Assembly: GCA_963169875.1 (NCBI GenBank)
Contig: CAUJEL010000041.1
Location: 1 to 64,000 of the forward strand
Direction: 5' to 3'
Origin: Candidatus Zhuqueibacterota bacterium
Lineage (GTDB): Bacteria; Zhuqueibacterota; Zhuqueibacteria; Residuimicrobiales; Residuimicrobiaceae
DNA: 64,000 bases
How positions within the stretch are numbered: the stretch's first letter is position 1; the number at the start of each line of letters is the position of its first letter. Below the pieces are notes generated by a model that was not told the origin of the DNA, searched no databases, and was given only the letters and a program-made list of their open reading frames with translations. Below are positions 9,406 to 31,344 of the stretch, in pieces. The position numbers were made by a program, and so were the translations under genes.

Positions 9406-12245
9406 TGGATTTCCAAACGGGTTCGCTGGTTCATGTTCATGGCCGGGATTGGGTGGTACAACCATCCGCCGAAAAGGAACTTTTGCTGCTAAAACCCCTC
9501 GGCGGCACTGATCAGGAAATTAAGGGAATCTATCTTCCCCTTCATTTCCCTGAAGATATGATTCAGTCATCCAGTTTCCCCTATCCTTCCAGCACAGACA
9601 TCGGCGATATCTCTTCCGCCCGATTGCTTTTCAATGCAGCCCGTTTGGCCATCAGGAACGGCGCCGGCCCTTTTCGCTGTCTGGGCAAGCTGTCCTTCAG
9701 GCCCAGATCCTATCAAATGGTTCCTCTGATCATGGCGCTCAAGCAGGAAGAAACGCCTGTTCGCCTCTTGATCGCCGATGACGTTGGCGTGGGCAAAACC
9801 ATAGAAGGCTTGCTGATACTGAAAGAGTTGCTGGACCGGAAGCACATTGAACGATTCGCCGTCATTTGTCTGCCCCATCTCTGCGACCAGTGGCAAGCTG
9901 AATTGCAGGACAAATTTGGCATTCAGAGCGTCGTCATCCGTTCAAACACCCAGGCGCGTCTCGACCGGGAAATCATCGGCGACACCAGCGTATTCCGTTA
10001 TTATCCGCATCAGGTTATATCCGTCGATTACATCAAATCTGAACAGAGGCGGCAGGTCTTTGTCAACGATTGTCCGGAATTGATCATCGTCGATGAAGCG
10101 CATACCTGTTCCCGGCCAGGCGGTCTGGGTTCCTCCGTCCAACAGCAGCGCTATGCCTTGATACGCGACATTGCCGCCAAACCAAATCAGCATGTGATCC
10201 TGATGACGGCGACGCCGCACAGCGGCAAGCAGGAGCAATTCCAGTCCCTGCTGGGCCTTCTTCACCCTGACTTTTTAACCATGGATGTGCCGTCGGCCTC
10301 CAAATCGCAGCGCGAGCGCTTGGCAAAACATTTCATTCAGCGCCGGCGCAAGGATGTGCAAACCTGGCTTGGTGAGGACACCCATTTCCCGCATCGCGAT
10401 TCCGGCGAATGCGCCTACGATCTTTCTCTAAAGTACGCCGATTTCTATGATCAGGTATTTGATTTTGCCTTGGGATTGACCAAAGCCGATGAAATCCACG
10501 AGGGCAAAAAACGTATGCGCTATTGGTCGGCCCTGGCGCTGTTGCGCGGGGTGATGTCCAGTCCCGCGGCAGGTATCGATATGCTGACCAACCGGTTGAA
10601 TAATTTGAAAACCGATGAGACCGAGATCGAGCCGGAGACCAATCCCATCCTGGATGAAGATTTTGATCTGGAAAAAGATTTTCCATCATCCGGCGTCATC
10701 ACCAAAACCGACTGGAGCAGCACGGAGGTCCGTAAGCTCCAATTCCTTTCGAAGCAACTGGAAGAACTGTCCAATCTCGATCAGGATCACAAGGCCCATA
10801 CCGCTTTAAAAGTGATAAAGGATTGGTTGAAACAGGGATTCAATCCCATCGTCTTCTGCCGCTATATTGCCACGGCAAATTATCTCGGCGAACTTGCAAA
10901 ACAAGAATTTGCCGGAGAGGATGACATCGATGTGCAGGTAGTCACCAGCGAAGATCCGGATGAAGTCCGCAAAGCCCGCATCGATGAAATGAAAGACAGT
11001 CCGCGGCGGCTCCTGATCGCCACCGATTGTCTATCCGAAGGCATCAACTTGCAGGACCTGTTCACCGCGGTATTGCACTATGACCTGCCCTGGAATCCCA
11101 ACCGGCTCGAACAGCGCGAAGGCCGCATTGACCGCTTCGGCCAGCAGGCAGATTCAGTGAAATGTTACCTGCTCTACGGCAAGGACAATCCCATCGATGG
11201 GGTGGTGTTGAAAGTGCTTTTGGAAAAAGTACGCCAGATTCGCCAGGAGATCGGCATCAGCATACCTTTTCCGGAGGACAGCCGTTCGCTGATGGATTCC
11301 GTCCTGCAGGCGGTCATTTTAAAAGGTCGAGCCCAATTACGCGACCAGCAGGTCAGTTTTGATTTTTTTGATAAAGCTTTTGAAGATTATAAAGGCCTGG
11401 AGATCACCAAAGAGTTTGAGAAAGCGGCCGAGCGGGAGAAACAATCGCGCAGTATTTTTGCCCAACATGGCATCATGGCTGAAGAGATCGAACAGGATTT
11501 GCACCAGTCCGATGATGCCATCGGCGATCCCGCGGCTGTTGAAAAATTTATGACTGAAGTGCTGAGTACGATGCTGAATACCCAGATAACACGCGATAAA
11601 CAAGGATATGTCCTTTATATCGGCCACCTGCCAGGTTCATTGCAATGTTTGTTGCCCGATTTTGCCAAACTCAAGGTCAGCTTTTATTCGCCGGTGCCTG
11701 ACGGCTATTACTATCTGGGCAGGAACCATCCATTGGTGGAACAGCTTTGCAGAAGTCTGATGTCGCATGCGATGCAGCGTAACAAAAAGCACGGCCCTGC
11801 ACGCGCGGCCGTGATCAAATGCCGCGACGTCGACGTTAAAACGACGTTGTTGTTGTACCGGGTACGGAACGTCATCGAGGAGAAAGAGAGCGGACGCCAG
11901 CTCGTTGCTGAAGAGGTCATGCCATTGGGCTATCAGGGCCTGGCCAAAGATTTTCATTTATTGGAAAACAAAGAGGCGGTTGAGCTGATGTTTACGGCCA
12001 TCCCGACGGACAATGTGACCGATCAAGCCGCCGCAGGCTATCTGAATTCTGAATTGACTGATTTGCAGGAAATTAAAGAGAATCTGGATCTTGTGGCCTA
12101 TACCCGCGCCGAATCATTGGTCGAATCCCACGAAAGATATCGAAAAATACTGGGAGGGAGCCGTTTCAAGACGGTGGAGCCGGTCCTGCCGATGGATCTG
12201 CTGGGAATCTATATTTTACTGCCCGATGGCGGGAGGCAAAATTGA
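9405..12245 (+). CDS. SNF2/RapA-like DEAD helicase, DrmD-like
   Basis: The 946-residue protein has Walker A 'DDVGVGKT' at 125-132, DEAH at 230-233, motif III TATPHSG at 268-274, and motif VI 'NRLEQREGRIDRFGQ' near 566-580. These are characteristic of RapA/HepA-type SNF2 ATPases. An N-terminal ~90-residue beta-rich region precedes the motor, and an ~350-residue C-terminal extension follows it. Size, motifs and position directly before a large adenine methyltransferase match DrmD of class 1 DISARM. It overlaps the upstream gene by one base and the downstream gene by four (TTGA), so the three are almost certainly one translation-coupled unit. SNF2 proteins translocate on duplex DNA; the role in restriction is inferred from DISARM. 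Confidence 0.8.
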   Translation: MDFQTGSLVHVHGRDWVVQPSAEKELLLLKPLGGTDQEIKGIYLPLHFPEDMIQSSSFPYPSSTDIGDISSARLLFNAARLAIRNGAGPFRCLGKLSFRPRSYQMVPLIMALKQEETPVRLLIADDVGVGKTIEGLLILKELLDRKHIERFAVICLPHLCDQWQAELQDKFGIQSVVIRSNTQARLDREIIGDTSVFRYYPHQVISVDYIKSEQRRQVFVNDCPELIIVDEAHTCSRPGGLGSSVQQQRYALIRDIAAKPNQHVILMTATPHSGKQEQFQSLLGLLHPDFLTMDVPSASKSQRERLAKHFIQRRRKDVQTWLGEDTHFPHRDSGECAYDLSLKYADFYDQVFDFALGLTKADEIHEGKKRMRYWSALALLRGVMSSPAAGIDMLTNRLNNLKTDETEIEPETNPILDEDFDLEKDFPSSGVITKTDWSSTEVRKLQFLSKQLEELSNLDQDHKAHTALKVIKDWLKQGFNPIVFCRYIATANYLGELAKQEFAGEDDIDVQVVTSEDPDEVRKARIDEMKDSPRRLLIATDCLSEGINLQDLFTAVLHYDLPWNPNRLEQREGRIDRFGQQADSVKCYLLYGKDNPIDGVVLKVLLEKVRQIRQEIGISIPFPEDSRSLMDSVLQAVILKGRAQLRDQQVSFDFFDKAFEDYKGLEITKEFEKAAEREKQSRSIFAQHGIMAEEIEQDLHQSDDAIGDPAAVEKFMTEVLSTMLNTQITRDKQGYVLYIGHLPGSLQCLLPDFAKLKVSFYSPVPDGYYYLGRNHPLVEQLCRSLMSHAMQRNKKHGPARAAVIKCRDVDVKTTLLLYRVRNVIEEKESGRQLVAEEVMPLGYQGLAKDFHLLENKEAVELMFTAIPTDNVTDQAAAGYLNSELTDLQEIKENLDLVAYTRAESLVESHERYRKILGGSRFKTVEPVLPMDLLGIYILLPDGGRQN

Positions 12246-15200
12246 AATTCCCGACCATCACCATTGAAGGCATGATCATCTCTGCCGATATTCTCGATAA
12301 AATCGAAACCGGCGAGGCGGACGGCCAATCACCCAAACATTTTGGATTGGAAGGTTCGCAAAAAGTTAAAGATGAAATCGCACGCATCTGGGCGGATTGT
12401 CAGGATCTGTGGCAAGTTTATTCACGGCAAATGTATAAAATAGGGAATTCTGCCAGTGGAGCCGCAGAAACCCGTCGCTATTGGATGTTGCCCCTTCTTG
12501 GGCTTCTCGGATATGATGCCCAGAATGCCAAAGCCGAAATTGTAAATGAAAAGACTTATGCGATCAGTCATCGTGCAATAAACCTGGACGGCTTACCAAT
12601 CCACATCATGGGATTTAATGACAAGCTGGGGGAAAAACGTCAGGACGGGGGCCCACGTCTGTCTCCCCATTCTCTGGTGCAGGAATATATTAATATAACC
12701 GAGCATCTTTATGCTCTTGTGACCAACGGCTTGCGTCTGCGTTTATTGCGGGATAACAGCCGCTTGATCAAGCAATCCTATATTGAGTTTGATCTCCAGG
12801 CCATGATGGAAGAAAACCACTATGCCGACTTTGCGGTCATGGTGCGTTTGCTCCACGCAACGCGTATGCCTAAGAGCATAGAAACAGGCGATGAAAGCCT
12901 GATCGAACAATATCATCAGGAAAGCCTGGATTCTGGTTCGCGTATCAGAGAAAAGTTGAGTGAAGCAGTTGAAAAATCTATCATTCTGCTTGGCACAGGA
13001 TTTTTGCAGCACCCGGCAAACGATGATCTGCGTGGCGAAATCGAGACCAAGAGAATCCCGGCAGATCAATTTTATCAACTGCAATTGCGGTTAATTTACC
13101 GTTTGCTTTTTCTCCTGGTTATTGAAGAAAGGCAACTGGTTTTTCCGGACAAAACGGATCAACAGAAGCGTCAAATATATTACAAATATTATGGTCTCTC
13201 CCGTTTGCGCGATCTTTCTGAAAGCCGCAGCTTGGAAGAGGGCAAGTACAGCGATCTGTGGATTTCTTTGCGGCAAACTTTTAGACTCTATGAGGATGAA
13301 GCTTTCGGCGCCAAGCTGGGTGTGCAGCCGCTGAACGGAGAACTTTTTGGGCTGGGGGGGTTGGGAATATTGGAATCCTGCAGTCTTGACAACACCGCGT
13401 TATTAGCCTGCATAGCTCATCTCAGTCGCTATAGCGATGAGGCCGGCAGGCACATGATTCGCGTAAATTATGCTGGATTGAATGTTGAAGAGTTCGGCTC
13501 TGTCTATGAAGGGCTTCTGGAATATGCGCCCAAAATCGAGCAGCAAAATAGCGGATGGACTTTCCGCTTTGTCAAAGGGACGGAGCGCTCATCATCCGGC
13601 ACTCATTACACCCCTGATGAACTGGTGCTTCCTCTGATCAAGCATTCCCTGGATCATATTATTCAGGATAAATTAAAAACACCGCTGAATAAAGATCCAA
13701 AGAAGTCTTATGATGGCAAAGGTGTTGGAAAAGTAAAACCAACTGAAGATATAGCGTCCATCAAAAGTGAGCAAGAAGCAGGACTGCTCTCAATTAAAGT
13801 GTGCGATGTTGCCTGTGGCAGCGGTCATATACTTTTAAATGCTGCGCGACGTATCGCCCAGGCACTTGCCACAGTACGCTCTGGAGAAGACCAGCCATCA
13901 CCGGAAGTACTGAGGCCTGCGATAAGGGATGTCATCTCACGTTGCATTTATGGTGTGGACAAAAACCCGTTGGCCGTTGAATTATGCAAAGTGGCGTTGT
14001 GGCTGGAAGCGCATAATCCGGGCGAGCCGCTCAGTTTTCTTGACCACCGTATCAAATGCGGCGATGCCATCGTCGGTCTGGCGCACATGCAGGAATTGCA
14101 GAATGGCATCAGTGAGGAGGCATTCAAGTCGTTGTCGGGCGATGATAAAACCGTTTGCCGTATTCTGCGCGACAAAAACAAAGCCGAACGGGCGGAACAA
14201 AAACGGCGTGAAGAGTACGCCAAGGTCCTGTACAAAGGCGTTGACAGTTTAGCTCAAGCCTTTTCACAATTGGATGCCATGCCCGACCGCAATCCCAGGC
14301 ACGTGTGCGATAAAAGCGAGGCCTATCTTGCGCTCATATCAGGCACTGAATATATGCGTCTGAAAACGCTGGCCGATATCCAGACCGCCCAGTTTTTTCT
14401 CCCCAAAGAAAAAGCCGGCGATTGTATTACGGATGGCACGTTTCGTGAGTATCTGGCCGGCCGGGCCATGCAGGGGCAAGCAGTTGCCAAAGCCATGGCG
14501 CTTGCCGTTGAAAAACGATTTTTCCACTGGTTTCTGGAATTCCCCGAGGTAATGGCAAATGGCGGATTTGATTGTATACTCGGGAATCCGCCGTTTCTGG
14601 GCGGCAAACGTATTAGCGGACGCTTTGGCGATCATTATTTGTCATATATAAAATTGAATTATGCTCCGGCAGTTGGTGGCCTTGATTTCGTAACTTATTT
14701 TTTTAGAAGAATATTCACACTTATAAAAGAAAACGGCTTTCTTTCACTTATTGCCACTAATACCATTTCTCAGGGAGATACCCGTGCTGGTGGACTAGAT
14801 GTGATTATTCGATCAGGTGGTACCATCAATCACGCAGTTCGTTCCATGCGTTGGCCGGGCGCAGCCGCGGTTGAGGTTGCATTAGTGACGATATATAAAG
14901 GGAAATGGGCTGGAACACTAACGTTAAACCGCAAATCGGTGCAACAAATTACCTCCTATTTGGACGATGCGGAACAATTGGGGAAACCGTTCCCGCTAAA
15001 ACAAAATGAGGGTAAGAGTTTTATTGGCTCATACGTTCTGGGTATGGGTTTTATTCTGGAACCGGAGGAAGCACAAAGGCTTATTGAACTGGATCCCAAG
15101 AATAAGGAAGTGCTCTTTCCCTATCTGAATGGCGAGGATCTCAACAGCCGGCCGAACCAGAGTCCGAGCCGCTGGGTGATCAATTTTCATGACTGGGATT

Positions 15201-16180
15201 TGGAAAAAGCCAAACAATACAAAGAACCTTTTGAAATAATAGAAAGACTGGTCAAACCCGAGCGTACTCGAAAAAAGTCTAATGGTGAGTTTATCTTGCG
15301 AAAGCCGTTGCCACAGAAATGGTGGATTTATGCAGACAAACGTCCCAAACTTTACCGCACCATCGTCCCGCTGGAGCGGGTCATGGTTGTAGCACAAGTA
15401 GCAAAATACCCCACATTTTTCTTTGTACCAAAGGGATATGTTTATTCAATGATGACAATTGTATTATCTATTTCAGATTTGGGTTATTATGCAGTTCTCT
15501 CTTCAACGATCCACGAAATTTGGATTAGAAAATATGGATCTTCATTAGAAACAAGGCAACGTTACACTCCGACCGATTGCTTTGAAACATTTCCCTTATT
15601 TATTTTTTCTGATGTATTCTTATCTTCATTAAGAAATATCGGTCAAGAATTAGATTCATTTCGTTCAAAATTGATGACATCCTTAATATGGGGTCTGACG
15701 AATATAATTAATCAATTCCATAATCCAAAACTGCCTATCATTGAAGTGCTACTCAAGTGCTCGGCCTATACAGTTGAGGATATAACCAAACATTACGGAA
15801 AAGAAACCTCTATTCTGTGGAATCACCTTAATACTAAGCCAGACACCTGTTCCTTTGCGGAAGCTGTGGCTGGCATCCACGAACTTCGTCGTTTGCACGT
15901 GCAAATGGATCAAGCCGTTCTTTCTGCCTACGGTTGGGACAAAGATGGTCCCGATGGTCCAGTCATCGATCTTCGTCATGACTTTTACGAGGTCGATTAT
16001 TTGCCCGAAAATGATCGCATTCGTTTCACCATTCATCCAGATGCACGAAGAGAGGTACTTAAAAGATTATTGCTGCTTAATCATAGAATTCATGCGGAGG
16101 AAGTAAAAGCTGGCCTCTGGGAAAAACCTGCAGTAAAAAGTAAGGGCACCAATAACAATCAAATTGCTTTTGATGTATAA
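12242..16180 (+). CDS. N6-adenine DNA methyltransferase, DrmMI-like
   Basis: It starts with TTG, four bases inside the preceding gene, with GGGAGG five bases upstream. Motif I is 'DVACGSGHILL' near 521-531 and motif IV is NPPF near 781-784, the arrangement of large Eco57I/PglX-type N6-adenine methyltransferases. A target-recognition region probably occupies about 900-1200. At 1312 residues it is the usual size of DrmMI and of PglX. No separate nuclease motif is seen at the N-terminus, so a type IIG enzyme is less likely. It probably marks host DNA to protect it from the system. BREX PglX is the main alternative, but no other BREX gene (pglZ, brxC, brxL) is present. Confidence 0.8.
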   Translation: MKFPTITIEGMIISADILDKIETGEADGQSPKHFGLEGSQKVKDEIARIWADCQDLWQVYSRQMYKIGNSASGAAETRRYWMLPLLGLLGYDAQNAKAEIVNEKTYAISHRAINLDGLPIHIMGFNDKLGEKRQDGGPRLSPHSLVQEYINITEHLYALVTNGLRLRLLRDNSRLIKQSYIEFDLQAMMEENHYADFAVMVRLLHATRMPKSIETGDESLIEQYHQESLDSGSRIREKLSEAVEKSIILLGTGFLQHPANDDLRGEIETKRIPADQFYQLQLRLIYRLLFLLVIEERQLVFPDKTDQQKRQIYYKYYGLSRLRDLSESRSLEEGKYSDLWISLRQTFRLYEDEAFGAKLGVQPLNGELFGLGGLGILESCSLDNTALLACIAHLSRYSDEAGRHMIRVNYAGLNVEEFGSVYEGLLEYAPKIEQQNSGWTFRFVKGTERSSSGTHYTPDELVLPLIKHSLDHIIQDKLKTPLNKDPKKSYDGKGVGKVKPTEDIASIKSEQEAGLLSIKVCDVACGSGHILLNAARRIAQALATVRSGEDQPSPEVLRPAIRDVISRCIYGVDKNPLAVELCKVALWLEAHNPGEPLSFLDHRIKCGDAIVGLAHMQELQNGISEEAFKSLSGDDKTVCRILRDKNKAERAEQKRREEYAKVLYKGVDSLAQAFSQLDAMPDRNPRHVCDKSEAYLALISGTEYMRLKTLADIQTAQFFLPKEKAGDCITDGTFREYLAGRAMQGQAVAKAMALAVEKRFFHWFLEFPEVMANGGFDCILGNPPFLGGKRISGRFGDHYLSYIKLNYAPAVGGLDFVTYFFRRIFTLIKENGFLSLIATNTISQGDTRAGGLDVIIRSGGTINHAVRSMRWPGAAAVEVALVTIYKGKWAGTLTLNRKSVQQITSYLDDAEQLGKPFPLKQNEGKSFIGSYVLGMGFILEPEEAQRLIELDPKNKEVLFPYLNGEDLNSRPNQSPSRWVINFHDWDLEKAKQYKEPFEIIERLVKPERTRKKSNGEFILRKPLPQKWWIYADKRPKLYRTIVPLERVMVVAQVAKYPTFFFVPKGYVYSMMTIVLSISDLGYYAVLSSTIHEIWIRKYGSSLETRQRYTPTDCFETFPLFIFSDVFLSSLRNIGQELDSFRSKLMTSLIWGLTNIINQFHNPKLPIIEVLLKCSAYTVEDITKHYGKETSILWNHLNTKPDTCSFAEAVAGIHELRRLHVQMDQAVLSAYGWDKDGPDGPVIDLRHDFYEVDYLPENDRIRFTIHPDARREVLKRLLLLNHRIHAEEVKAGLWEKPAVKSKGTNNNQIAFDV

Positions 16181-18479: not shown

Positions 18480-19169
18480 ATGATGAATGACTATTTAACT
18501 CCGCAGAGGATAAAATTAATTGAATGGCTATCCAAGGAAGCACCTTCTTTAGGGCAGGTATATGAGGGTTGCCTAAGAATCCTATTTTCTGAGGAAGAAA
18601 TTCCAGGATGGGCCAGATTTGTAGCACATGGTGTCCGAGAGATTCGTAACCAATTACCGTTTCAAGTTGCTGGCCTTGCAAAATCAACGAAGCTAGAATA
18701 TTCAGATAAAATTAATCAAATTGCAAAATTATGGGAAGAAGAGGCGTTACCGATAAATGGCTCTTTGCCACTTAGGTCGATGAATGAGGGAGAGGTATTA
18801 CCACCTAACAGTCGAATCGAAATACCAGTCCAAATTTATATTAGTATCTCAGTATTAATTGGTGAACATATTGGTGTTAATCTAAACAATAGAGAAAGAG
18901 CTAGCAAATTTATTAATTTTATGTTATCCGAAGAAAATGCCACAGATAAAAATGATCCAATAGTCCAATACTGGTGGGATACCACCGAATATTTTATGCA
19001 TTATACACATGAGAACGGTGTCGCTGACGAATTACTAAATAAACGGCCAGAATTCATCGGCAAGTTTGAGACCTTTGAACTGATCTTATCCAATCTGATA
19101 CAAGAATTCTATGCTACAACGGAGATTCTGGATGCAATCTTGGACTCAACCAACACAAGAACAAATTGA
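18480..19169 (+). CDS. Unrecognised 229-aa helical protein, partner of the 951-aa gene
   Basis: I do not recognise a named family. The protein is helical and acidic, with 'ARFVAHGVREIRNQLP' at about residues 40-55; the A-H-x-x-R-E-I-R-N core resembles small proteins paired with large repeat proteins in defence islands. The last 38 bases overlap the start of the 951-aa gene, so the two are probably translated together and act as a pair. The first codons read ATGATG, so the start may be one codon later. No catalytic motif is visible. Confidence 0.6.
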   Translation: MMNDYLTPQRIKLIEWLSKEAPSLGQVYEGCLRILFSEEEIPGWARFVAHGVREIRNQLPFQVAGLAKSTKLEYSDKINQIAKLWEEEALPINGSLPLRSMNEGEVLPPNSRIEIPVQIYISISVLIGEHIGVNLNNRERASKFINFMLSEENATDKNDPIVQYWWDTTEYFMHYTHENGVADELLNKRPEFIGKFETFELILSNLIQEFYATTEILDAILDSTNTRTN

Positions 19170-21987
19170 GCAAGTCATTGTTGCTCTTGCGCATCCTGCA
19201 CAGCGCAGATACTTTTTTGATAAATTGGATAATCCAGAGTGGATTACCCCGCTCACAAATGCAGGTTTTTTTAAAAATACTCCCGCAGCAGGTGTGGATG
19301 CATCAGGCAATATAATTCAATGCCCACCCTGGCCCGAATCAAAGTATCTTGCAAAAGTGGCAGCTGAAAGCCCGCAAAAAATATATGATATTTTTATGGC
19401 CTTGGACATAAAAAACAACACTACTGTATTTGCCGATCTTATAGAATCGGCCGCTAAAATCCCTCAGGATTTGACCATCAGAATGATGAACCAAAAGGTA
19501 ATTCCCTGGATAGAAAAATGTGACCAAATACCCTTTAACATTTGTGAAAATATTTTGCAGCTTTTTGAGCACTTAATTGCTGGACAAAAATCAAGTGAAG
19601 CATTTAAGCTGTTTCAAATTGTATTTGAAGTTTTGCCTGATAAAAAAGAATTCTCAGATAATTTCTTGGGAACCTTTTCGCAACCACGAGCAAGACTGGA
19701 TCCTTGGCAGTATGAGGTATATATTAACAAAGCTATCGAACTGTTGCATGTTACTGAATATAAAGAACTGATAGCTATTCTCGTGTCTATGTTGAATAAG
19801 GCGTTACATCTGGCTGCTTACGAAAAGCCCCATGATAATTCATATATTTGGCGCCCAGCAATTGAGGAACATAAACAAAATATTCGAACGGATATTATAA
19901 ATGTCCTAATTACTGTAATCAGGAATTCCACAGAAAAACTAATTCAAATAAACAACGATGTTTATACCCCAATATCTTCTCATCTGCTATCGAAGGAATG
20001 GCATATCTTTATCCGCTTGGCAATTCATCTAGCGAGAAAAAATCCAAAGAGAAATTCCGATTCGGTAGCAACATTTTTAACCAACCGGTCATACTTTGAG
20101 TCGGCTGAACTGCGTCATGAATTCGGACTCCTCCTTGACGAATGCTTCAATTTACTAGCCGAGGCGGACAAAGATACAATTCTAAATTGGATGAAAGAGG
20201 GCCCAAGCGAAGATTATAAACAAAAATTTGGCGATGAAGCTGGTAATCAAGAAGAAAAAGAACGGTTTAAAAGAAAGTGGCAGCTGAAGCAACTTGCCCT
20301 ATTTCACGCAAATCTTCCACAAGAATGGCAAAATATCTACAGGAAACTGGTTGAGGAGTTTGGTGAACCGAAGCATCCGGATTTTGCATTTTATTCAACA
20401 ACGACCATAGGTGATGAGAGCCCCAAAATCCAAGAATCATTAAAAGAAATGAGTATCTCGGAACTTGTTGATTACCTGGCTTCCTGGCAACCCAAAAACG
20501 AATTTGATGAGCCTAGTAAAGAAGGGTTGTCCCGCACTTTACAAGGGCTCATAGCCAACGAACCAGACCGATACTATGACTTACTAAAAAAGTGTACTTT
20601 GCTGGAGCCAATTTATACTCGAGCACTTTTTTCAGGATACCACGGTGCCATTAAACAAAATAAAATGATCAATTGGGACATTCTGTTTGCAGCATGCCTG
20701 GAAATGGTTTTAGTACTTCGAGAATTTGGTCAGAAAGAGACTTTAACTGGTGAAAGGGACCCTGGTCGGCGGCAAGCTGACATGAGAATAGCGGATATTG
20801 TCGATGCTGCATTTGAAAAGGAAACTGATCTGGATCAAAAATTTCGCGACATAATCTGGCAAATTATCGAGCTATTGACAGATGATCCTGATCCCTCTGC
20901 TGATTCAGAAATTTATGGCTCGACCAGTATGGATCCTTCAAATCGCTCTCTTAATGTGGTACGTGGCCAGGCTCTTCACGCTGCTATAAAATATGCTTTG
21001 TGGGTAAGGCGACATCTTGAAAGCCGTCCTGATTCGGCAGAACAACTCGGCAAGGGCTTTGACACTATGCCTGAGGTAAGGCGCGTCCTTGAAATACATT
21101 TAGATATCAATAATGACCCCGCCCTCGCCATCCGCAGTGTATATGGACAATGGTTTCCATGGTTGGTATTAATAGACGAAGCCTGGGCCACAAAATATGC
21201 CGATCAAATATTTCCAGAAACTGAGGAATTGGAAAAATACTTTCTCGCCGCATGGTATGCTTTTATTTCTTTTTCAAAGGCTTATAAAAGTTCATTTATC
21301 ATTTTGAGCCAAAAATATCGTAAAGCAATCAGTTTAATAGGAAATCAAAAGGCTTTCAAGAATTTCATGGCAAACCCAGATGAGGAATTGGCAAAACATT
21401 TGATGCAACTCTACTGGGAGGGACAGCTGGAAAATGGTTTAAATAATGATCTTTTGCAGTCTTTTTGGCAGAAAGCTGACGCAAAGCTTACTGCTTTTGC
21501 CGTACAATTTGTAGGTTTAACCTTAGGCAGAACAGAAGGCACAATCGAAACGGCGATTTTAAATAGGTTAACTGCTTTTTGGCAGGATAGGTTAGACATC
21601 AATAGCCCGGCAGAAACACGTAATATCGATGAACTATCAAATTTCTGTTATTGGTTTGCAAGCGAAAAATTTGATGCAAAATGGAGCATCGAAATGCTTC
21701 AGAAGTGTCTTGACCTCGGTGCTTTGATGATACCGCAAATGCATGCGATTGAGAGATTGACTGAGCTTTCAACTGGATTTCCCGCAGATGCATTAAAATG
21801 TCTTGATCGATTAATTAGAAATGATCTTCAGCCGATGTTGATCTCGTTTTGGACAAAACAAATACGGACAATTATAACAAATGCTTTTAATTTAATGGAT
21901 GCTGACATTTCAAATATCGCAGAAAAGTTAGTGCATCATCTCGGTAGTAAACAGTTTTATGAATTTAGGGATTTGCTGCCGGAATAG
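19132..21987 (+). CDS. Unrecognised 951-aa helical-repeat protein
   Basis: The start is set at 19132 because GGAG lies seven bases upstream, inside the preceding gene; an upstream ATG at 19111 has no such site. The protein looks entirely alpha-helical, resembling HEAT/ARM-type scaffolds. A conserved-looking segment near the N-terminus, 'PPWPESKYLAKVAAESP', is followed by many amphipathic helices, and no Walker, nuclease or membrane motif is evident. With the overlapping 229-aa gene it forms a two-gene module of unknown function inside the defence block. It may be a sensor or scaffold; this is speculation from shape alone. Confidence 0.6.
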   Translation: MQSWTQPTQEQIEQVIVALAHPAQRRYFFDKLDNPEWITPLTNAGFFKNTPAAGVDASGNIIQCPPWPESKYLAKVAAESPQKIYDIFMALDIKNNTTVFADLIESAAKIPQDLTIRMMNQKVIPWIEKCDQIPFNICENILQLFEHLIAGQKSSEAFKLFQIVFEVLPDKKEFSDNFLGTFSQPRARLDPWQYEVYINKAIELLHVTEYKELIAILVSMLNKALHLAAYEKPHDNSYIWRPAIEEHKQNIRTDIINVLITVIRNSTEKLIQINNDVYTPISSHLLSKEWHIFIRLAIHLARKNPKRNSDSVATFLTNRSYFESAELRHEFGLLLDECFNLLAEADKDTILNWMKEGPSEDYKQKFGDEAGNQEEKERFKRKWQLKQLALFHANLPQEWQNIYRKLVEEFGEPKHPDFAFYSTTTIGDESPKIQESLKEMSISELVDYLASWQPKNEFDEPSKEGLSRTLQGLIANEPDRYYDLLKKCTLLEPIYTRALFSGYHGAIKQNKMINWDILFAACLEMVLVLREFGQKETLTGERDPGRRQADMRIADIVDAAFEKETDLDQKFRDIIWQIIELLTDDPDPSADSEIYGSTSMDPSNRSLNVVRGQALHAAIKYALWVRRHLESRPDSAEQLGKGFDTMPEVRRVLEIHLDINNDPALAIRSVYGQWFPWLVLIDEAWATKYADQIFPETEELEKYFLAAWYAFISFSKAYKSSFIILSQKYRKAISLIGNQKAFKNFMANPDEELAKHLMQLYWEGQLENGLNNDLLQSFWQKADAKLTAFAVQFVGLTLGRTEGTIETAILNRLTAFWQDRLDINSPAETRNIDELSNFCYWFASEKFDAKWSIEMLQKCLDLGALMIPQMHAIERLTELSTGFPADALKCLDRLIRNDLQPMLISFWTKQIRTIITNAFNLMDADISNIAEKLVHHLGSKQFYEFRDLLPE

Positions 21988-22116: not shown

Positions 22117-22728
22117 ATGCAGAGAGTGATCGTTTATGTCGACGGTTTTAATCTGTACTTTGGATTGCGCTCAAAAGGCTGGAAAAGGTTTTACTGGCTT
22201 GACATCAGAAAACTTGCTCAAAGTCTATTGAAGCAGGGCCAAAAATTAATCCGGACAAAATATTTCACCTCACGTGTCACCAAGCCGCCGGACAAGGCGG
22301 CGCGGCAAAATACCTTCATGGAGGCCTTGCAAACATTACCGGATGTTGACATTTTTTTCGGACATTATTTGATCAACACTATTGAGTGCAAACGTTGTGG
22401 CAACATCCTTCCACGGCCGAATGAAAAGATGACTGATGTCAATATTGCGGTTGAATTATTAACCGATGCTTTTCAGGATATATTCGACACCGCTATTTTG
22501 ATTTCCGCCGATAGCGATCTTGTCGGTCCAATACGGAAGGTAAAGTTGCTGACGCCCGATAAAAGAATCATCATTGCTTTTCCGCCGGACCGGCATTCCT
22601 TTGCACTGGAGCAGGTCGCAGATGCCAGTTTTACCATTGGCCGGAAGAAATTCGCCGAAAGCCTATTTCCTGATTCACTACAAAAAGCGGATGGATATAC
22701 ATTGACTAGACCAGCACAGTGGAAATGA
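22117..22728 (+). CDS. NYN-domain (LabA/DUF88-type) nuclease
   Basis: The 203-residue protein is a single NYN domain of the PIN-like fold. Acidic and polar active-site candidates are D9 and N12 in 'YVDGFNLY', D107 in 'MTDVNIAVELL', and D132/D134 in 'ISADSDLVGPI'. An insertion with C91-x2-C94 could bind zinc. NYN proteins are metal-dependent RNases or structure-specific nucleases. It is preceded by paired hairpins and followed by 173 bases before the next gene, so it may be separately expressed. It could supply nuclease activity to the block or be an independent module. Confidence 0.8.
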   Translation: MQRVIVYVDGFNLYFGLRSKGWKRFYWLDIRKLAQSLLKQGQKLIRTKYFTSRVTKPPDKAARQNTFMEALQTLPDVDIFFGHYLINTIECKRCGNILPRPNEKMTDVNIAVELLTDAFQDIFDTAILISADSDLVGPIRKVKLLTPDKRIIIAFPPDRHSFALEQVADASFTIGRKKFAESLFPDSLQKADGYTLTRPAQWK

Positions 22729-22901: not shown

Positions 22902-24449
22902 ATGGATATTTTCTGGAACACCGGTCAAAAAGATACCACTCAAGGCCTTGACATTCTTGGTTTGCGGCAAATCGACCAGAGCATCGAAAAACGCTGGGTC
23001 GCCGGGATCACAACAATCTCTTATCGTGCCCGCTACCTCTCTCTGCTGCCCTGGATCATTGGTGAATTCTATACCATGAAATTGAATCCTGAGACAAAAG
23101 ATGGGGAATTTATTTATGATCAATTCAGGGATGTACTTCGCAGACTGGAATTTGTTATATTGGCAGCCACACGGTTGCAGCAGGATGAGACTGGAGCAGG
23201 CACGACAATCGGGATATTGGGCGCAGATAATTTTTATGAAGATATGCAGGTTTTACTATCAGATGGGTGTTTTCAGGCTGAGCTGTTAAAAGGAGGCAGT
23301 AGCCTTGGCGTGTATTTCATGCCCTGCGCCGGATTTGGGCTGTTAGAGCGCAGTCCTTTCAATGATCGCATACCTGTCAGAACGACATCTCGCGGCAAAG
23401 AAATATTCACCGCTAAACCCCAGCAGATGGCTGGATCACCCGTTCTTGAATATATTCTGAACGGTGGCACGCTCAATTTGCAGGATTTGCATGCCTGCAA
23501 AAACCAATTTTCACTAAATGCACTAAATACGGTCGAATGCCAACAAGAAGTGCAACTTCTCGCGTCCGCCTTTTTGGGATCGTATAGAGATCCAAACAAT
23601 GATACTTACCAGCGCTTTATCTCTACGCTGCTTTGGATTTTCAGGCACAGCGAAAATCCAATAACCCCACGAACACTCCTTCTCGAAAATTATCGCAAGA
23701 TGATTGATGCTTCCGGCACCCCACAGGATTCAGTGGAATTATCGTTCATGGCATACGAACTCTACCGCCGCTACCACTTTTCCTTTGAGCTATTATTGAA
23801 AAGTTTTGTCGAAACGCTGCAGACTTTTGAAAAAGGCTCTGTCGGGACCATTGTTTCTGAATGGAAGAACCACTCTGAGATATCACCCGAATTGAAAGAA
23901 ATAATCAATCTTGATGAAATAGATTTTAATGAGCCTGTTGAAACACTTGTGTCACATATTCCCCGCAGTGCTTTTCTTGCCCATAACATGGACACCAGTA
24001 AGGCACAGCATCAGTCATTACACTGTCAGGTGCTGTATGCGCTTGCTATTCTGGTCGCATGTCAAAAACAAATCTCCAACAAAGAGCGCCTATTCGAGCT
24101 ATACCCCGATGATATGATCAAGCTGGCATTCGAAATACTTTCTTCGCAAAAAGAATCAATAGCGAGCCTGCTTTCTCAGGTCCTGGAACGCATCGTACTG
24201 GTTTCGCATTTGTCCACGACCTGGAGAAAGATCAGCCAGGGGCAAAAAAGTTCGCTGCGATTCCATACGGAAGGTACTTATTATTATCCCACCGGTATCG
24301 GCGTGCAGGCTGGATATAGCGGGGATCGGTTGAGCAATGTCATGCTCATGCTCTCGGATTTGGGGTATTTACATCGCGATGCTGCAGGAAAATATTCAAT
24401 CACTGAGAAAGGCATTGTGCAAAAGCAAAACTTGGAGACCCGACTTTGA
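22902..24449 (+). CDS. Unrecognised 515-aa protein with C-terminal winged helix, partner of PLD nuclease
   Basis: The N-terminus reads 'FWNTGQKDTTQGLDILGLR' and 'WVAGITTISYRARYLSLLPW', which I recall from proteins encoded next to phospholipase-D nucleases in defence islands, but I cannot name a family. The last ~45 residues ('RLSNVMLMLSDLGYL', 'GKYSITEKG') fit a winged-helix DNA-binding fold. The stop overlaps the TTG start of the PLD gene by four bases, so the two products are probably made in fixed ratio. It may guide the nuclease to DNA. ATG at 22902 has only a weak upstream purine stretch, so the start is uncertain. Confidence 0.65.
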   Translation: MDIFWNTGQKDTTQGLDILGLRQIDQSIEKRWVAGITTISYRARYLSLLPWIIGEFYTMKLNPETKDGEFIYDQFRDVLRRLEFVILAATRLQQDETGAGTTIGILGADNFYEDMQVLLSDGCFQAELLKGGSSLGVYFMPCAGFGLLERSPFNDRIPVRTTSRGKEIFTAKPQQMAGSPVLEYILNGGTLNLQDLHACKNQFSLNALNTVECQQEVQLLASAFLGSYRDPNNDTYQRFISTLLWIFRHSENPITPRTLLLENYRKMIDASGTPQDSVELSFMAYELYRRYHFSFELLLKSFVETLQTFEKGSVGTIVSEWKNHSEISPELKEIINLDEIDFNEPVETLVSHIPRSAFLAHNMDTSKAQHQSLHCQVLYALAILVACQKQISNKERLFELYPDDMIKLAFEILSSQKESIASLLSQVLERIVLVSHLSTTWRKISQGQKSSLRFHTEGTYYYPTGIGVQAGYSGDRLSNVMLMLSDLGYLHRDAAGKYSITEKGIVQKQNLETRL

Positions 24450-27082
24450 AGCGAGACATTCTGGATGAAATCAGACAAGCCAAAGAAGCGACTCAGATAA
24501 TTATCTTGACTCATAATATTGATTTCTTTTTTATACAATCCATGCTGCTGCCTGTTCTGCGCAAGTGCGGAAATCCTGGTCTCACCATTTTTGCCGATTC
24601 CAATTGCGCCAGCGCCTCTTTTCAAGAACAATCCCGCTGGTTGGACAGCATCGGCAGCCGTTATCGCGTCGTGCCCGTTCATATGGATACTCCATGGCGA
24701 TTCCATCCAAAAGCAGTTATTATCTCCTCCCCGGAGCGCGGTCTCTTATTTATTGGCAGCGGCAACTTGAGCTATGGAGGGTGGCGGGAAAATGCAGAGG
24801 TCTGGCTGCAATTTAGCAGTGATGATGAAAACAATCCCATCTATGATTTTCGTAGTTATTTGAACTTCCTTTGTAAAGCCGTTCCCAATAATGACAGCAT
24901 TCAACTTGAAATTGACAAGGCATTTGATAAAGTTCGGCACCCCTGGGTTGAAGCATTGAAACCGTCTTCAATATTTCTGGGAACATCGCAAGACGCTGAG
25001 AGTTTGTCAGCCCGAATGTTATCGCAGATCCAACGGCCGGTTGATCGGCTCATCATCTGTGCTCCTTACTTTGACAGCAAGGGTGAAATGATTCGCAGGC
25101 TGACCGCGGAATCGGGCGCTGCCAATGTGACTGTACTCGTTCAAGAAAATCGAACGAATCTGGTGCAGGAGGCGATTGTCGATCTGCCATCGCATATTGA
25201 GCTCGACACCATTCTGAGAGATTGCGACAAAAGAGGATTCTATCATGCCAAGTTCTATGCCTTTGAAAGTGCTGCTGGGGTAACGGTTTTTACCGGGAGC
25301 GCGAATTGTTCTATTGCTGCATTAGGCATGACTGGGAATCGGGGTAACACAGAAATATTATGCAGGACCCAATTATCAAAAAACGATTTTGAAGAACTTT
25401 TCATGAGTGAATTGGCGCTTTCCGGACAACCGCCAAATTTAAAGTCTGTACAGGAGCTGGAAGATTCTGAGTGGAAAGATTTTGCCATCAAGATTATATC
25501 TTGTCAAAGAAAACTTCAAGTCATTGAGATTGCCTATGTCACTAACCAGGAAGTGAAAATAACGGAATGTTCTGTAGATGGGAAGATAACCGGATTTCAA
25601 ATAAACGCCCCGGGACATCTCTCTGTAAAGACTCTTGGCAAACCGGCGCGCGTCAAGCTGACCGGTGAGGTGAATGGAATCCAAGTTATATCTCCGGAAC
25701 ATTGGATAGATGATGAAATCCAGCTAAGCCTTGATGCAAAACATCGTTCTTTGGTCGATAGCATAATGGAGCAGCAGGCTGCGGGCAATCCGTTTTCGCC
25801 TGATAATATGCAGGGTTTTCTAGATATTATGCTAAAGCAAACGGATAAACGGGCGAGCTACCTTTCCATATTCAGAGAAAAAGCTGGACCCGGTGCGGAT
25901 GCTGCAAATGAACCCGTTAAATTCACCGAAAGTGATGTTTTCGGCGATGATTATGCTGCAAAATTTCAAAGGGGCCGTGTGGGTGGTAACCGCAAGACTT
26001 CTAATGGCGATATGTTCAGTCTTTTGCTAAAGTTCCTGGGAAACGAGCCTGGCAAAAATCCTGCGAAGGAAAGTATGGAGGAGGAACAAGAGGAAATTGA
26101 TTTTGACGCGGAGCGCCGGAAGCATGAAACCAAAGAAAAACAGGATATCCCTTCCGAAACTGACGATTTGGAAGCTAAACAGAGCCGGGCGAGGAGGGCT
26201 TTCAGCCGAGCTGCAAGGCGGATGTCCAGTGAGGATTACTTAAATTCTCGCCCTCTGGAGCACATCTTTCTAGATCTGAAAATCATTCCAGCTTTTCTGC
26301 TCAAATCGCTGAATGAGGGTTGGATCACCGGGCAAGAATATGTGCAATGGACCCACCAGATATGGTCGAAATTATTCTTTGAAAAATACCAGGATGATAC
26401 AACTGGTCCAGAAGGAGGCATCGGCTGGTTGGGTAAATTATATGGTCCCGCAATGAACACCATGGACAAAAAAGATTTTGTGGATCATCAGCTTTCGGCC
26501 TCACTGGTCGCATGGCTGTTATCTTTGCCAGCTTCTGTCGAATCCAGTGAAATGGCTTTTCTGGAACTTGCCTGTATGAAATCAATGGCATATTATCCGC
26601 GTTTGTGGAGCCGCCATGAACCGGAAAAAGTACAGGATGAACTTGAAGAACTCTATTCCAACCCAGACCTTAAATTTGGCGAGGACTGGGATTGTAGCAA
26701 AATCTATGATAGTTGGCTGCTGGAAATACGCCGGGCCGATGCTTTACAACAATTCGAACAAGTGATAGCAAAATATAGTCTTGTCGATGTCGTCAACAGA
26801 ATCCCGGCAAAAAAAGAAGTAAAAAAGGGAGAGTTGTTGTGGCAGGGCAATTTTGGATTATGTGTTGTTGAAAACATGAATGAACAAAAGAAAGGAAAAA
26901 TTGCGGTGCGAATCCTGCACACGCATGATGTGAAAAATATTGGGATAGGAAGCATTTCCCCGCTTTGTGACATCCTGCATTCCAGTCTGATTTCATCGAG
27001 TGAGCTATCATCTGAAATGAGGCAAATTTTAATTGCTTTTACTCTAGAGTTGAATGCTGGGTTGGCAAAAGTGAAAAAATAA
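24446..27082 (+). CDS. Phospholipase D-family nuclease, large DrmC-like protein
   Basis: It starts at TTG with GGAG eight bases upstream, overlapping the previous stop (TTGA). Two HKD half-sites are clear: H87-x-K89 with 'GSGN' near 104-107, and H267-x-K269 with 'GSAN' near 287-290. Both lie in the first ~350 residues, so the catalytic PLD dimer is intrachain. The remaining ~520 residues include an acidic/basic charged linker (about 535-600) and a helical C-terminus of unknown function. DrmC of DISARM is a PLD protein, usually far shorter, so this 878-residue form is either an expanded DrmC or part of a separate module with the 515-aa partner. Confidence 0.75.
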   Translation: MKRDILDEIRQAKEATQIIILTHNIDFFFIQSMLLPVLRKCGNPGLTIFADSNCASASFQEQSRWLDSIGSRYRVVPVHMDTPWRFHPKAVIISSPERGLLFIGSGNLSYGGWRENAEVWLQFSSDDENNPIYDFRSYLNFLCKAVPNNDSIQLEIDKAFDKVRHPWVEALKPSSIFLGTSQDAESLSARMLSQIQRPVDRLIICAPYFDSKGEMIRRLTAESGAANVTVLVQENRTNLVQEAIVDLPSHIELDTILRDCDKRGFYHAKFYAFESAAGVTVFTGSANCSIAALGMTGNRGNTEILCRTQLSKNDFEELFMSELALSGQPPNLKSVQELEDSEWKDFAIKIISCQRKLQVIEIAYVTNQEVKITECSVDGKITGFQINAPGHLSVKTLGKPARVKLTGEVNGIQVISPEHWIDDEIQLSLDAKHRSLVDSIMEQQAAGNPFSPDNMQGFLDIMLKQTDKRASYLSIFREKAGPGADAANEPVKFTESDVFGDDYAAKFQRGRVGGNRKTSNGDMFSLLLKFLGNEPGKNPAKESMEEEQEEIDFDAERRKHETKEKQDIPSETDDLEAKQSRARRAFSRAARRMSSEDYLNSRPLEHIFLDLKIIPAFLLKSLNEGWITGQEYVQWTHQIWSKLFFEKYQDDTTGPEGGIGWLGKLYGPAMNTMDKKDFVDHQLSASLVAWLLSLPASVESSEMAFLELACMKSMAYYPRLWSRHEPEKVQDELEELYSNPDLKFGEDWDCSKIYDSWLLEIRRADALQQFEQVIAKYSLVDVVNRIPAKKEVKKGELLWQGNFGLCVVENMNEQKKGKIAVRILHTHDVKNIGIGSISPLCDILHSSLISSSELSSEMRQILIAFTLELNAGLAKVKK

Positions 27083-27133: not shown

Positions 27134-29263
27134 ATGGCAACACGTGAGAGTTTTTTGCTGGTCCTCATCTTGTTTTTAAGTGTTCCGACATTGCAGAGCG
27201 CGGAATACCGTGTAAGTGACATCTGCTTCGCAAAAGAAAATCCTGAGCAGGATGCGTTGATTGTGTTTGTGCTTGAACCAGGAATGCGAGTTACTTCTCT
27301 ACGCGAAAACAGCAATTGGTTACTTGTCACAAGCCCAAAAAATAACAGATTAAGCGGCTGGGTTCAGAAAGAAGCGTTAATACGTACATCGAAAGAGACA
27401 GCAGTCAGCCATAAAACTGATTCAATTCAGGTTTTAACTTCGAATCCTCCCGGTTCTCCTGCAAAAACTGAAATTCAGAATCCCCGGCAATTTCACATCC
27501 GCCAGGCAAAAGAAATAGCTCAGAGAAGAATTATTATAGCCTCTGCAGTGATGGCTTTACTTGTATTGACATTACTGTTTATGGTTCGTTTAGTAATTCG
27601 AAACTTAAATGAAAATAAAATCTTACAGGCACAAAAGAAGCCGCATTATCCGCAGCCAACTGTTATTCATACAACGCCTCCAGAAACACAAATACAGCGG
27701 CCCGTAGCGCCCCCAGGTACCAGCTCCGGACCACCGGCCCCTGCAAAACCACCAGTTGAAAGCCCACAACCACCTACGGGTGCAGAGCCTATATCTCCAA
27801 AGCCGGAACCTGTCGTAAAAACTACACCTTCTCCGCAAGAAACACCAGGCCCAGTAAGCCCGACAATACCCAAAGTTGAAATCCCGAAACCGGCACCTAC
27901 GGGTAAAGCGCCTGTATCTCCAAAGCCGGAACCCAGAGTCACTACTCCCCCTCCTCCTGAGCCAGAAAAACCCACTATCGTAGATGGTATTGAGATAAAT
28001 GAGGACTTTCAGCGAGCGTTGGATTTAATGGAAAACAGCAATCATTGTCTCTTTATCACAGGCAAAGCCGGAACCGGCAAATCGACCTTGTTAAAGTTAT
28101 TCGTACAAGAAACCCAGAAAAAGGTAGCCTTGCTGGCGTATACTGGAATCGCGGCTTTAAACATAGGTGGCAGAACCATACACTCGTTTTTTAAATTTCC
28201 TCCGCACAAGATCACCGATGATGACATTAAAGATTCATACGAGAAATCACTGTATCAGTCTTTCGATGCCATAATTATTGATGAAATCTCAATGGTGCGA
28301 GCGGACATGCTTGATGCCATTGACAAGTTCTTGCGAAAAAACGGCCGTGATAGAACCAAAGCATTTGGTGGAATTCAGGTAATCTTTTTTGGCGATTTGT
28401 TTCAACTCCCACCGATCGCAAAAAAGGATGAGCTTGCTTATCTCGAGGATAATTTTGGGGGCGTCTATTTTTTCGACGCGCCTGTGATAAAGACTGTCAA
28501 GCCCGTAACGATTCAACTGCAAAAAGTATATCGTCAAAAAGACCAAAATTTCATCTACATTTTAGATGCGATACGAACGGGAAATCATAATCAATATATC
28601 CTTGACGCGTTGAACGAACGTCTTGATGGCAATTTTCAATCTGTTAATGACCAAGCCATCACCTTGACACCGAAAAATGCGAAAGCATTCGAAATAAATA
28701 AGGCCAAACTGGATGCCATTGACTCCAAGCAATTTATTTTTCGGGGTTTTCTTGAAGGCAAGTTTCCTGATGACAATCTGCCAACAGACATGGAATTACC
28801 ACTAAAAGCAGGTGCACAGGTCATGTTTGTCAAAAACGACTCGCAAAAACGCTGGGTTAATGGTACGCTCGGAAAAGTGATTGATCTATCAGAAAGAAGC
28901 ATCAAAGTACGTATTACAGCGAACGGCGGTGGAACTTTTGAAGTCTTGAAAGAAAAATGGGAGATATACGAACATAAATATGATCCGGAAACAAAGAAAA
29001 TCAAAATCAACGTTATTGGCAGCTTTAGCCAGATTCCTCTCAAACTTGCCTGGGCGATCACAATTAACAAGAGTCAGGGGCTTACTTTTGATCGAGTTAT
29101 AATTGATCTTGATACAGGCGCCTTTGCTTGTGGCCAAACTTATGTTGCTCTGAGTCGCTGTCGCTCCCTCGGCGGGATTATTCTGCGCAAAAGAGTGACT
29201 GATGGTGATATTCGCGTTGATCCAAGGGTTGTGCGGTTTATGGAAAATCCACACGCGGAGTAA
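27134..29263 (+). CDS. Membrane-anchored SH3-domain / Pif1-like helicase
   Basis: The domain order is unusual. A signal-like hydrophobic segment (5-22) is followed by an SH3b-like domain (about 24-88, 'GMRVTSLRENSNWLLV', 'LSGWVQKEAL'), a transmembrane helix (133-153), a Pro-rich linker (169-282) with an internal duplication of 'SPKPEP', and a full Pif1/RecD-type helicase. The helicase shows Walker A GKAGTGKS (310-317), IIIDEISM (about 379-386) and C-terminal 'INKSQGLTFDRV' with 'YVALSRC'. The predicted topology puts SH3b in the periplasm and the helicase in the cytoplasm. The gene follows the PLD gene by 51 bases and closes the rightward block. A sensor that couples the envelope to DNA unwinding is an inference. 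Confidence 0.75.
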   Translation: MATRESFLLVLILFLSVPTLQSAEYRVSDICFAKENPEQDALIVFVLEPGMRVTSLRENSNWLLVTSPKNNRLSGWVQKEALIRTSKETAVSHKTDSIQVLTSNPPGSPAKTEIQNPRQFHIRQAKEIAQRRIIIASAVMALLVLTLLFMVRLVIRNLNENKILQAQKKPHYPQPTVIHTTPPETQIQRPVAPPGTSSGPPAPAKPPVESPQPPTGAEPISPKPEPVVKTTPSPQETPGPVSPTIPKVEIPKPAPTGKAPVSPKPEPRVTTPPPPEPEKPTIVDGIEINEDFQRALDLMENSNHCLFITGKAGTGKSTLLKLFVQETQKKVALLAYTGIAALNIGGRTIHSFFKFPPHKITDDDIKDSYEKSLYQSFDAIIIDEISMVRADMLDAIDKFLRKNGRDRTKAFGGIQVIFFGDLFQLPPIAKKDELAYLEDNFGGVYFFDAPVIKTVKPVTIQLQKVYRQKDQNFIYILDAIRTGNHNQYILDALNERLDGNFQSVNDQAITLTPKNAKAFEINKAKLDAIDSKQFIFRGFLEGKFPDDNLPTDMELPLKAGAQVMFVKNDSQKRWVNGTLGKVIDLSERSIKVRITANGGGTFEVLKEKWEIYEHKYDPETKKIKINVIGSFSQIPLKLAWAITINKSQGLTFDRVIIDLDTGAFACGQTYVALSRCRSLGGIILRKRVTDGDIRVDPRVVRFMENPHAE

Positions 29264-31093: not shown

Positions 31094-31155
31094 TTCGTGC
31101 AAATTGACAGCCTGAGATGTTTCTTGTAAATGATTATTTTTGCTGTTTTTGCTTG

Positions 31156-31229
31156 CGGGGCCGACGGGGCTCGAACCCGCGACCTCTGGCTTGACAGGCC
31201 AGTGTGCTAACCAGCTGCACCACGACCCC
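31156..31229 (-). tRNA. tRNA-Asp (GTC)
   Basis: The acceptor stem pairs GGGGTCG (31229-31223) with CGGCCCC, including one G-U pair, followed by G73 as expected for tRNA-Asp. The anticodon loop reads CTGTCAA, giving anticodon GTC, and the T arm has GGTTCGAGCC. CCA is not encoded. The 3' end faces the island, the typical orientation when a tRNA serves as an integration site. Confidence 0.95.
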
Positions 31230-31238
31230 AATATTTTA

Positions 31239-31264
31239 CCACCTGAAGGTGGAACTACGAACAA
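31239..31264. repeat. REP-like hairpin between the tRNA genes
   Basis: CCACC-TGAA-GGTGG followed by AACTACGAACAA is a variant of the hairpin-plus-AACTACGAACG element found at 34227, 34396 and 61407. Confidence 0.6.
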
Positions 31265-31269
31265 CCTTG

Positions 31270-31344
31270 TGGGCAGTACTGGGTTCGAACCAGTGACCTC
31301 CTGCTTGTAAGGCAGGCGCTCTAAACCTGCTGAGCTAACCGCCC
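31270..31344 (-). tRNA. tRNA-Val (TAC)
   Basis: The acceptor stem pairs GGGCGGT (31344-31338) with ACTGCCC, followed by A73. The D arm begins TAGCTCAG, the anticodon loop reads CTTACAA (anticodon TAC), and the T arm has GGTTCGAACCC. CCA is not encoded. It lies 40 bases upstream of tRNA-Asp and is probably co-transcribed with it. Confidence 0.95.

Follow-up and report, generated by a model that had tools for sequence, protein, structure and literature searches.

Helicases of the Pif1 family act in genome maintenance. Solved SF1B members such as those of Sulfurihydrogenibium (PDB 8bns), Deferribacter (8bnv/8bnx) and Bacteroides (5ftb) are soluble cores with short N-termini, and the two thermophile proteins carry a C-terminal WYL domain (PMC9964779). 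Among described defence systems, ARMADA type I comprises, in this order, genes for YprA, a BrxHII-like helicase and a PglX-like methyltransferase, and Pif1 is unmentioned in the text of the paper describing it (PMC12458937). Zorya (ZorAB, ZorD and ZorE) couples contact with the envelope or peptidoglycan to DNA-acting enzymes (PMC11890865), while Shield ShdA is a membrane-bound RmuC defence protein that seems toxic without its anchor (PMC10270631). Here, we describe a gene on the 3' side of an island resembling ARMADA type I, whose product joins a complete Pif1 helicase to a putative envelope anchor, and for which membrane tethering is our preferred, though tentative, reading.

Domain layout of the fused helicase

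The window analysed is a stretch of 64,000 nucleotides from a Candidatus Zhuqueibacterota genome (contig CAUJEL010000041.1, positions 1 to 64,000). Its gene of interest reads open from ATG to TAA and occurs in a single copy in the source genome (5.0 Mb, 215 contigs). The original prediction, exact in coordinates and length, gave the domain order as signal segment, SH3b-like domain, transmembrane (TM) helix, Pro-rich linker and complete Pif1 helicase; this order holds in one intact chain, with the SH3b domain likely but below the Pfam cut-off. The features are as follows:

27134 to 29263, + strand: SH3b-TM-Pif1 gene, 709 aa, one intact chain
27134 to 27202, + strand: signal-peptide-like segment, residues 1-23, hydrophobic at 6-24 (Kyte-Doolittle 1.65), with an equivalent in the homologue
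27203 to 27391, + strand: SH3b-like domain, residues 24-86, Pfam SH3_3 E = 2.6e-5, five strands in a low-confidence model
27392 to 27529, + strand: spacer before the membrane, residues 87-132, 17% identical to the homologue, mostly low pLDDT
27530 to 27598, + strand: TM helix, residues 133-155, Kyte-Doolittle 2.93, within AlphaFold2 helix 117-167
27599 to 27979, + strand: Pro-rich disordered linker, residues 156-282, 39 Pro in 117 residues, pLDDT below 50 at 168-268, dissimilar to the homologue's linker
27771 to 27834, + strand: linker repeat copy 1, 64 nt, direct repeat
27894 to 27957, + strand: linker repeat copy 2, 78% identical to copy 1, 41 codons downstream
27980 to 29260, + strand: Pif1 helicase core, residues 283-709, motifs intact

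The Pfam PIF1 profile matched the protein with E = 1.4e-31. The closest solved relative, the Sulfurihydrogenibium Pif1 (8bns), was recovered by sequence at E = 8.5e-118 and by fold at a Foldseek E of 1.3e-44 with 45% identity. SF1B motifs I, II, III, V and VI are all intact, including Walker A (GKAGTGKS), Walker B (IIIDEISM) and motif III (GDLFQLPP), and the Pif1 signature SMVRADMLDAIDKFLRKNGRD lies between motifs II and III, as confirmed by the homologue alignment. By sequence, the protein is a complete Pif1-family helicase, predicted to be 5'-3' and ATP-dependent. It shares its complete core with the solved SF1B proteins, to which it adds the signal segment, SH3b-like domain, TM helix and linker, and unlike the two thermophile proteins it has no WYL domain.

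The hydrophobic N-terminal segment (residues 6-24) is followed by QSA-E. Residues 24-86 matched Pfam SH3_3 (PF08239) at 24.7 bits (E = 2.6e-5), below the gathering score of 27, and this piece is likely an SH3b-like domain, because the equivalent piece of a homologue gives the same profile match (SH3_3, 4.1e-5; SH3_4, 4.0e-5; both likewise below the Pfam curated cut-offs). Modelled alone from the single sequence, the N-terminal part showed five strands in SH3b-barrel order at a pLDDT of about 50; the best Foldseek matches of this low-confidence model were SH3 domains, at an E of 1.5 that proves nothing on its own, and a sequence search of the SH3b piece against the PDB gave no match. SH3b domains often bind cell-wall material. 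The protein also matched TIGR04211 weakly (E = 0.0045, 16.6 bits against a cut-off of 65 bits, thus outside the family). TIGR04211 comprises SH3-and-anchor proteins of the E. coli YgiM type; these likewise run from signal peptide through SH3b to a membrane anchor, and lack the helicase of the window protein.

The strongest hydrophobic 19-mer spans residues 133-151 (Kyte-Doolittle 2.93), and AlphaFold2 with 15 sequences placed a confident long helix (117-167, block pLDDT mostly 81-91) across it, in agreement with the original proposal of a TM segment near 133-153. In the same model residues 168-268 have no structure (pLDDT below 50), and 39 of the 117 residues from 166 to 282 are proline. Structure prediction, suggested earlier as a check, returned a confident helix over the TM segment, a confident helicase and a disordered linker, and, for the N-terminal part modelled alone, five strands at a pLDDT of about 50. 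The linker contains a 64-nt direct repeat at a spacing of 123 nt (41 codons; 27771 to 27957), an in-frame duplication, and we conclude from the sequence that the linker of the window copy grew by internal duplication.

The SH3b-like domain had also been predicted to lie outside and the helicase inside. Because of the N-terminal signal segment this topology is plausible and likely; the Lys/Arg counts at the TM flanks favour it in the homologue (2 outer, 5 inner) but not in the window copy (5 outer, 3 inner).

Among 388 genomes of relatives, the SH3b-TM-Pif1 layout occurs in two, plus one broken remnant. The second intact copy, in a genome of the same order and a different family (G013), is an independently assembled 692-aa protein with signal segment, SH3b, TM helix (165-183), linker and Pif1. 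The two proteins are 38% identical in the signal segment, 35% in the SH3b and about 54-55% in Pif1; the alignment of their SH3b segments scores 25.7 SD above that of shuffled sequences, the window protein has its TM segment opposite a gap, and the linkers share no detectable similarity (alignment z about 0). What the linkers retain is softness and hydrophilicity rather than sequence. The remnant, in a genome of the same family as the source (G005), retains a broken C-terminal part beside DrmD and an actin-like gene. Among the plasmid-record matches listed, only the Pif1 core was matched and nothing carried the N-terminal part.

An artefact of mis-joined genes, a wrong start or a decaying pseudogene could be suspected from the weak SH3b score and from the composition of the linker, whose GC content is 0.55 against 0.41 on either side. 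However, the GC shift tracks the Pro codons, to which it is attributed, the frame has no stops and all motifs are intact, and the same fusion at 35% (SH3b) and 55% (Pif1) identity stands in an independently assembled genome, leaving an artefact extremely improbable. Since the G013 homologue keeps the layout, the N-terminal part is neither a mis-joined gene, a prospect raised with the original prediction, nor a chance join; a mis-joined gene or pseudogene is ruled out by this homologue, and the fusion, as read from both sequences, is real.

On another reading, in line with the original proposal of a sensor, the SH3b domain detects wall or membrane damage at phage entry and a signal through the TM helix switches the helicase on. 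The predicted topology fits such an envelope sensor, the binding of SH3b domains to cell-wall material would suit it, and Zorya offers a case in which infection can be sensed by a periplasmic domain that binds peptidoglycan and is coupled to effectors in the cytoplasm (PMC11890865). Against this, it is not evident how a conformational signal would travel through a single TM helix and the about 125 disordered, unconserved residues behind it; the linker, moreover, has grown by duplication, and neither oligomerisation, a motor partner nor a conserved adjoining partner gene was seen. We therefore regard a sensor as unlikely: the signalling part of the original prediction found no support in a short SH3b-like domain, a single TM helix and linkers whose similarity has a z of about 0. 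A linker that is kept long and disordered, with its sequence unconserved, argues for localisation by a leash rather than for signalling.

The surrounding island and its counterpart in G013

The gene had been placed at the end of a defence block, and PADLOC and Pfam assignments of the upstream genes bear this out:

4336 to 9405, + strand: ARMADA-type YprA-family helicase, DruE-like, with MZB domain (PADLOC and Pfam)
9405 to 12245, + strand: ARMADA-type SNF2 helicase, BrxHII/DrmD/DpdE-like (PADLOC and Pfam)
12242 to 16180, + strand: ARMADA-type methyltransferase, DrmMI/PglX-like (PADLOC and Pfam)
16252 (start): FRG protein
17114 (start): small ORF
17526 (start): putative AbiC protein
18480 to 19169, + strand: 229-aa protein of unknown family, overlapping the Dsr1-like gene, 48-50% identical in G006 and G013
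19111 to 21987, + strand: Dsr1-like protein without the profile's N-terminal ~300 positions, a conserved island gene
22117 to 22728, + strand: NYN-domain protein (PADLOC HEC-09, E = 3.7e-89)
22902 to 24449, + strand: weakly ZacA-like protein, 4-bp overlap with the PLD gene
24446 to 27082, + strand: PLD-nuclease-like protein (PLDc_2, ZacB-like), ending 51 bp before the helicase gene

No terminator-like site was found on the + strand between the PLD and helicase genes. The first genes of the island are the ARMADA type I trio, in the published order of YprA, the BrxHII-like SNF2 helicase and the PglX-like methyltransferase (4336 to 16180). The trio recurs in G006 and G013; the Pif1 helicase gene is an additional neighbour and does not belong to the system as described. 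The genes for YprA, SNF2, the methyltransferase, the 229-aa protein and the Dsr1-like protein are ordered alike in G006 and G013, where they are 41-70% identical to those of the window. In G013 the Dsr1-like gene leaves one contig at residue 862 and resumes at 862 on the next, the contig ends sharing 10 bases, from which we infer that the two contigs join within this gene. On the second contig, the Dsr1-like gene is followed by DrmD, an actin-like gene and an insertion sequence, and then by SH3b-TM-Pif1, DarT and a DarG-like gene. The search for homologues and their neighbours thus returned a full-layout homologue in the same kind of island and, given this contig join, the helicase gene is at the 3' side of the same ARMADA type I-like island in both genomes.

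The directly upstream genes differ, being NYN, ZacA-like and PLD in the window and DrmD with an actin-like gene in G013 and G005. The same island with differing genes in between points to a tie to the island rather than to a fixed operon partner. Candidate partners were considered and rejected. The DrmD/actin-like pair accompanies Pif1 in two relatives, stands without it in five other genomes that were read, and is lacking in the source genome, and three other genomes have a Dsr1-like gene with no Pif1 nearby. No close relatives of the PLD gene were found in 156 genomes.

Two further gene associations were observed. The 229-aa gene and the Dsr1-like gene without the profile's N-terminal part (window 18480 to 21987; L163, L164) travel with the ARMADA trio in three genomes. 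In G071 (L166, 8497 to 12369), what precedes the Dsr1-like gene is a separate SIR2-like gene, as though the 229-aa protein took the place of SIR2. Furthermore, a DrmD-type SNF2 helicase followed directly by an actin-like ATPase (no Pfam match) forms a conserved two-gene module, found alone or beside ARMADA or defence genes, and is a candidate defence module. Its loci are:

L092, 526 to 4946
L093, 252 to 4760
L144, 5249 to 9749
L145, 8277 to 12777
L146, 1167 to 5677
L147, 8287 to 12871
L148, 7828 to 12314

At the right side, G005 and G003 are syntenic with the window over tRNA-Asp and tRNA-Val (31155 to 31344, - strand) and the glycosylasparaginase and SelD-like genes downstream of them. The left side is different, and the island therefore probably ends between 29263 and 31155. 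A duplicated tRNA-Asp 3' end was sought at the left edge as an attachment site, and no such repeat lies within the window, whose contig begins at base 1. A DnaG-type primase fragment and a phage primase/helicase-like gene occupy the left edge (231 to 2008, - strand), which suggests that the island belongs, or once belonged, to a satellite-like element.

Membrane-anchored Pif1 helicases elsewhere

Roughly 130 Pif1 proteins were surveyed (the 80 best loci of a species-level scan, the matches in the 388 genomes, and viral and phage loci), and a strong TM helix in the N-terminal part was seen in only six of them: the window protein, the G013 homologue, L009 from a Chloroflexota MAG, and the viral L172, L176 and L188. 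The earlier statement that Pif1 helicases are normally soluble is mostly true, then, with TM-anchored exceptions in the Chloroflexota MAG and three viral contigs. These four proteins also consist of N-terminal TM helix, linker and Pif1, and lack the SH3b and the signal peptide. In L009, the TM helix (residues 3-21) leads into a charged, Pro-containing linker. The anchored viral genes are located as follows:

L176, 5677 to 7452: TM-anchored Pif1
L172, 5803 to 7335: TM-anchored Pif1
L193, 3935 to 5545: TM-anchored Pif1

In L176 and L188/L193 the gene is just upstream of the small and large terminase genes, and these contigs are assigned to tailed phages because of this. A maximum-likelihood tree built from 78 Pif1 cores pairs the window protein with that of G013 (99/93), with L009 the next to join (96/91); the phage TM-Pif1s sit on two other branches, indicating three anchor-state changes on the tree. 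A separate variant, L123 (G206), has Pif1 fused to N-terminal ankyrin and TPR-like repeats without a membrane anchor. No description of a membrane-anchored Pif1, phage proteins included, was found in the open-access literature searched, and the original remark that no described system has this layout likewise stands for that literature.

These relatives bear on two other readings of the window gene. It may be a passenger, that is, a membrane-associated helicase for DNA maintenance, replication or DNA uptake merely riding in the island. The known maintenance roles of Pif1 would agree with this, and so would the same-clade L009, whose neighbours are ParAB, ABC-transporter and weakly prepilin-peptidase-like genes with no defence genes among them; anchored Pif1 occurs in only one of the 396 genomes of its class, namely its own. 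However, the two intact SH3b-TM-Pif1 genes, like the remnant, have defence genes around them, their rare and patchy distribution (2 of 388 genomes plus the remnant) is unlike that of a housekeeping gene, and housekeeping-type Pif1s in related groups are soluble, so that a passenger appears rather doubtful.

Alternatively, the anchored Pif1 may first have served a mobile element in DNA entry, replication or packaging and have come in with the island. Viral contigs do carry TM-anchored Pif1, two of them just upstream of terminase, the left-edge primase genes of the window resemble those of phages and satellites, and ARMADA islands have been reported on satellite-like elements (PMC12458937). Such an origin is nonetheless improbable, as the phage TM-Pif1s fall on other branches and none has an SH3b; the left end of the element, moreover, is cut off by the contig start. 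Since TM-Pif1s also occur in a Chloroflexota MAG and on viral contigs, anchoring alone does not imply a sensor or defence.

A putative membrane tether and its described parallels

Our preferred reading, held tentatively and at somewhat less than an even chance, is that the protein is a 5'-3' helicase of the Pif1 family held at the cytoplasmic membrane, on its inner face, where it would probably aid defence. The N-terminal signal would place the SH3b-like domain in the periplasm and the helicase in the cytoplasm, and the SH3b would hold the protein to the cell wall or to an envelope partner. The linker of ~125 residues may act as a leash that gives the motor access to DNA up to roughly 10 nm from the membrane. 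The motor could load there on foreign DNA that is single-stranded or gapped while it enters or is replicated at the membrane, and unwind it, exposing it to nuclease; putative partners are the upstream PLD-type nuclease, or else the ARMADA enzymes of the island (helicases and methyltransferase).

For the tether, the layout is kept in G013, the motifs are intact and the fold model matches solved Pif1s. A putative use in defence would fit the position of the gene at the 3' side of the shared five-gene island in both genomes and the remnant beside DrmD and the actin-like gene, and also the close soluble Pif1 relatives, which lie in non-defence contexts wherever their flanks were read. The linker, kept in length but not in sequence and with an internal duplication, is as expected of a leash, and the recurrence of TM-anchored Pif1s in cells and phages further supports tethering. 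Against these points, only two intact examples and one remnant are available, and defence islands collect unrelated genes; there is no fixed operon partner, the upstream gene sets being different; the same-clade Chloroflexota protein stands outside a defence context; and the SH3b is below the Pfam cut-off with a low-confidence model, while the TM-flank charges of the window copy are unfavourable.

If the tether is correct, one compact protein would keep a DNA motor at the membrane beside restriction-type enzymes, and a single gene would allow a test of where in the cell defence meets incoming DNA. That phage Pif1s have TM anchors of independent origin suggests that membrane placement is useful to both sides. 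By a broader conjecture, to which we give little weight, an anchored Pif1 is a recurrent device at DNA entry, wall-linked through SH3b in ARMADA-type islands to catch incoming DNA and adopted independently by some tailed phages for the opposite purpose. Were the protein only a passenger, it would still be a rare Pif1 architecture that standard helicase-domain searches overlook.

As for described systems, Zorya is not a relative. It is an ion-driven motor of several proteins, MotAB-like and with a Pal-like domain, and its parts are missing here: the island genes scanned include no ZorA/ZorB MotAB-like pair with an OmpA/Pal-like domain, and their ZorD-type matches are SNF2 helicase cores only. 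Shield ShdA is a nuclease of another fold with neither SH3b nor helicase, and no RmuC match is among the families listed for the window protein, to which it is unrelated. It nevertheless works alike, as a protein of defence islands with an N-terminal TM helix and a cytoplasmic DNA-acting domain, and provides a precedent for tethering. The Pif1 family itself is already known, and what is new here is the envelope anchor on it.
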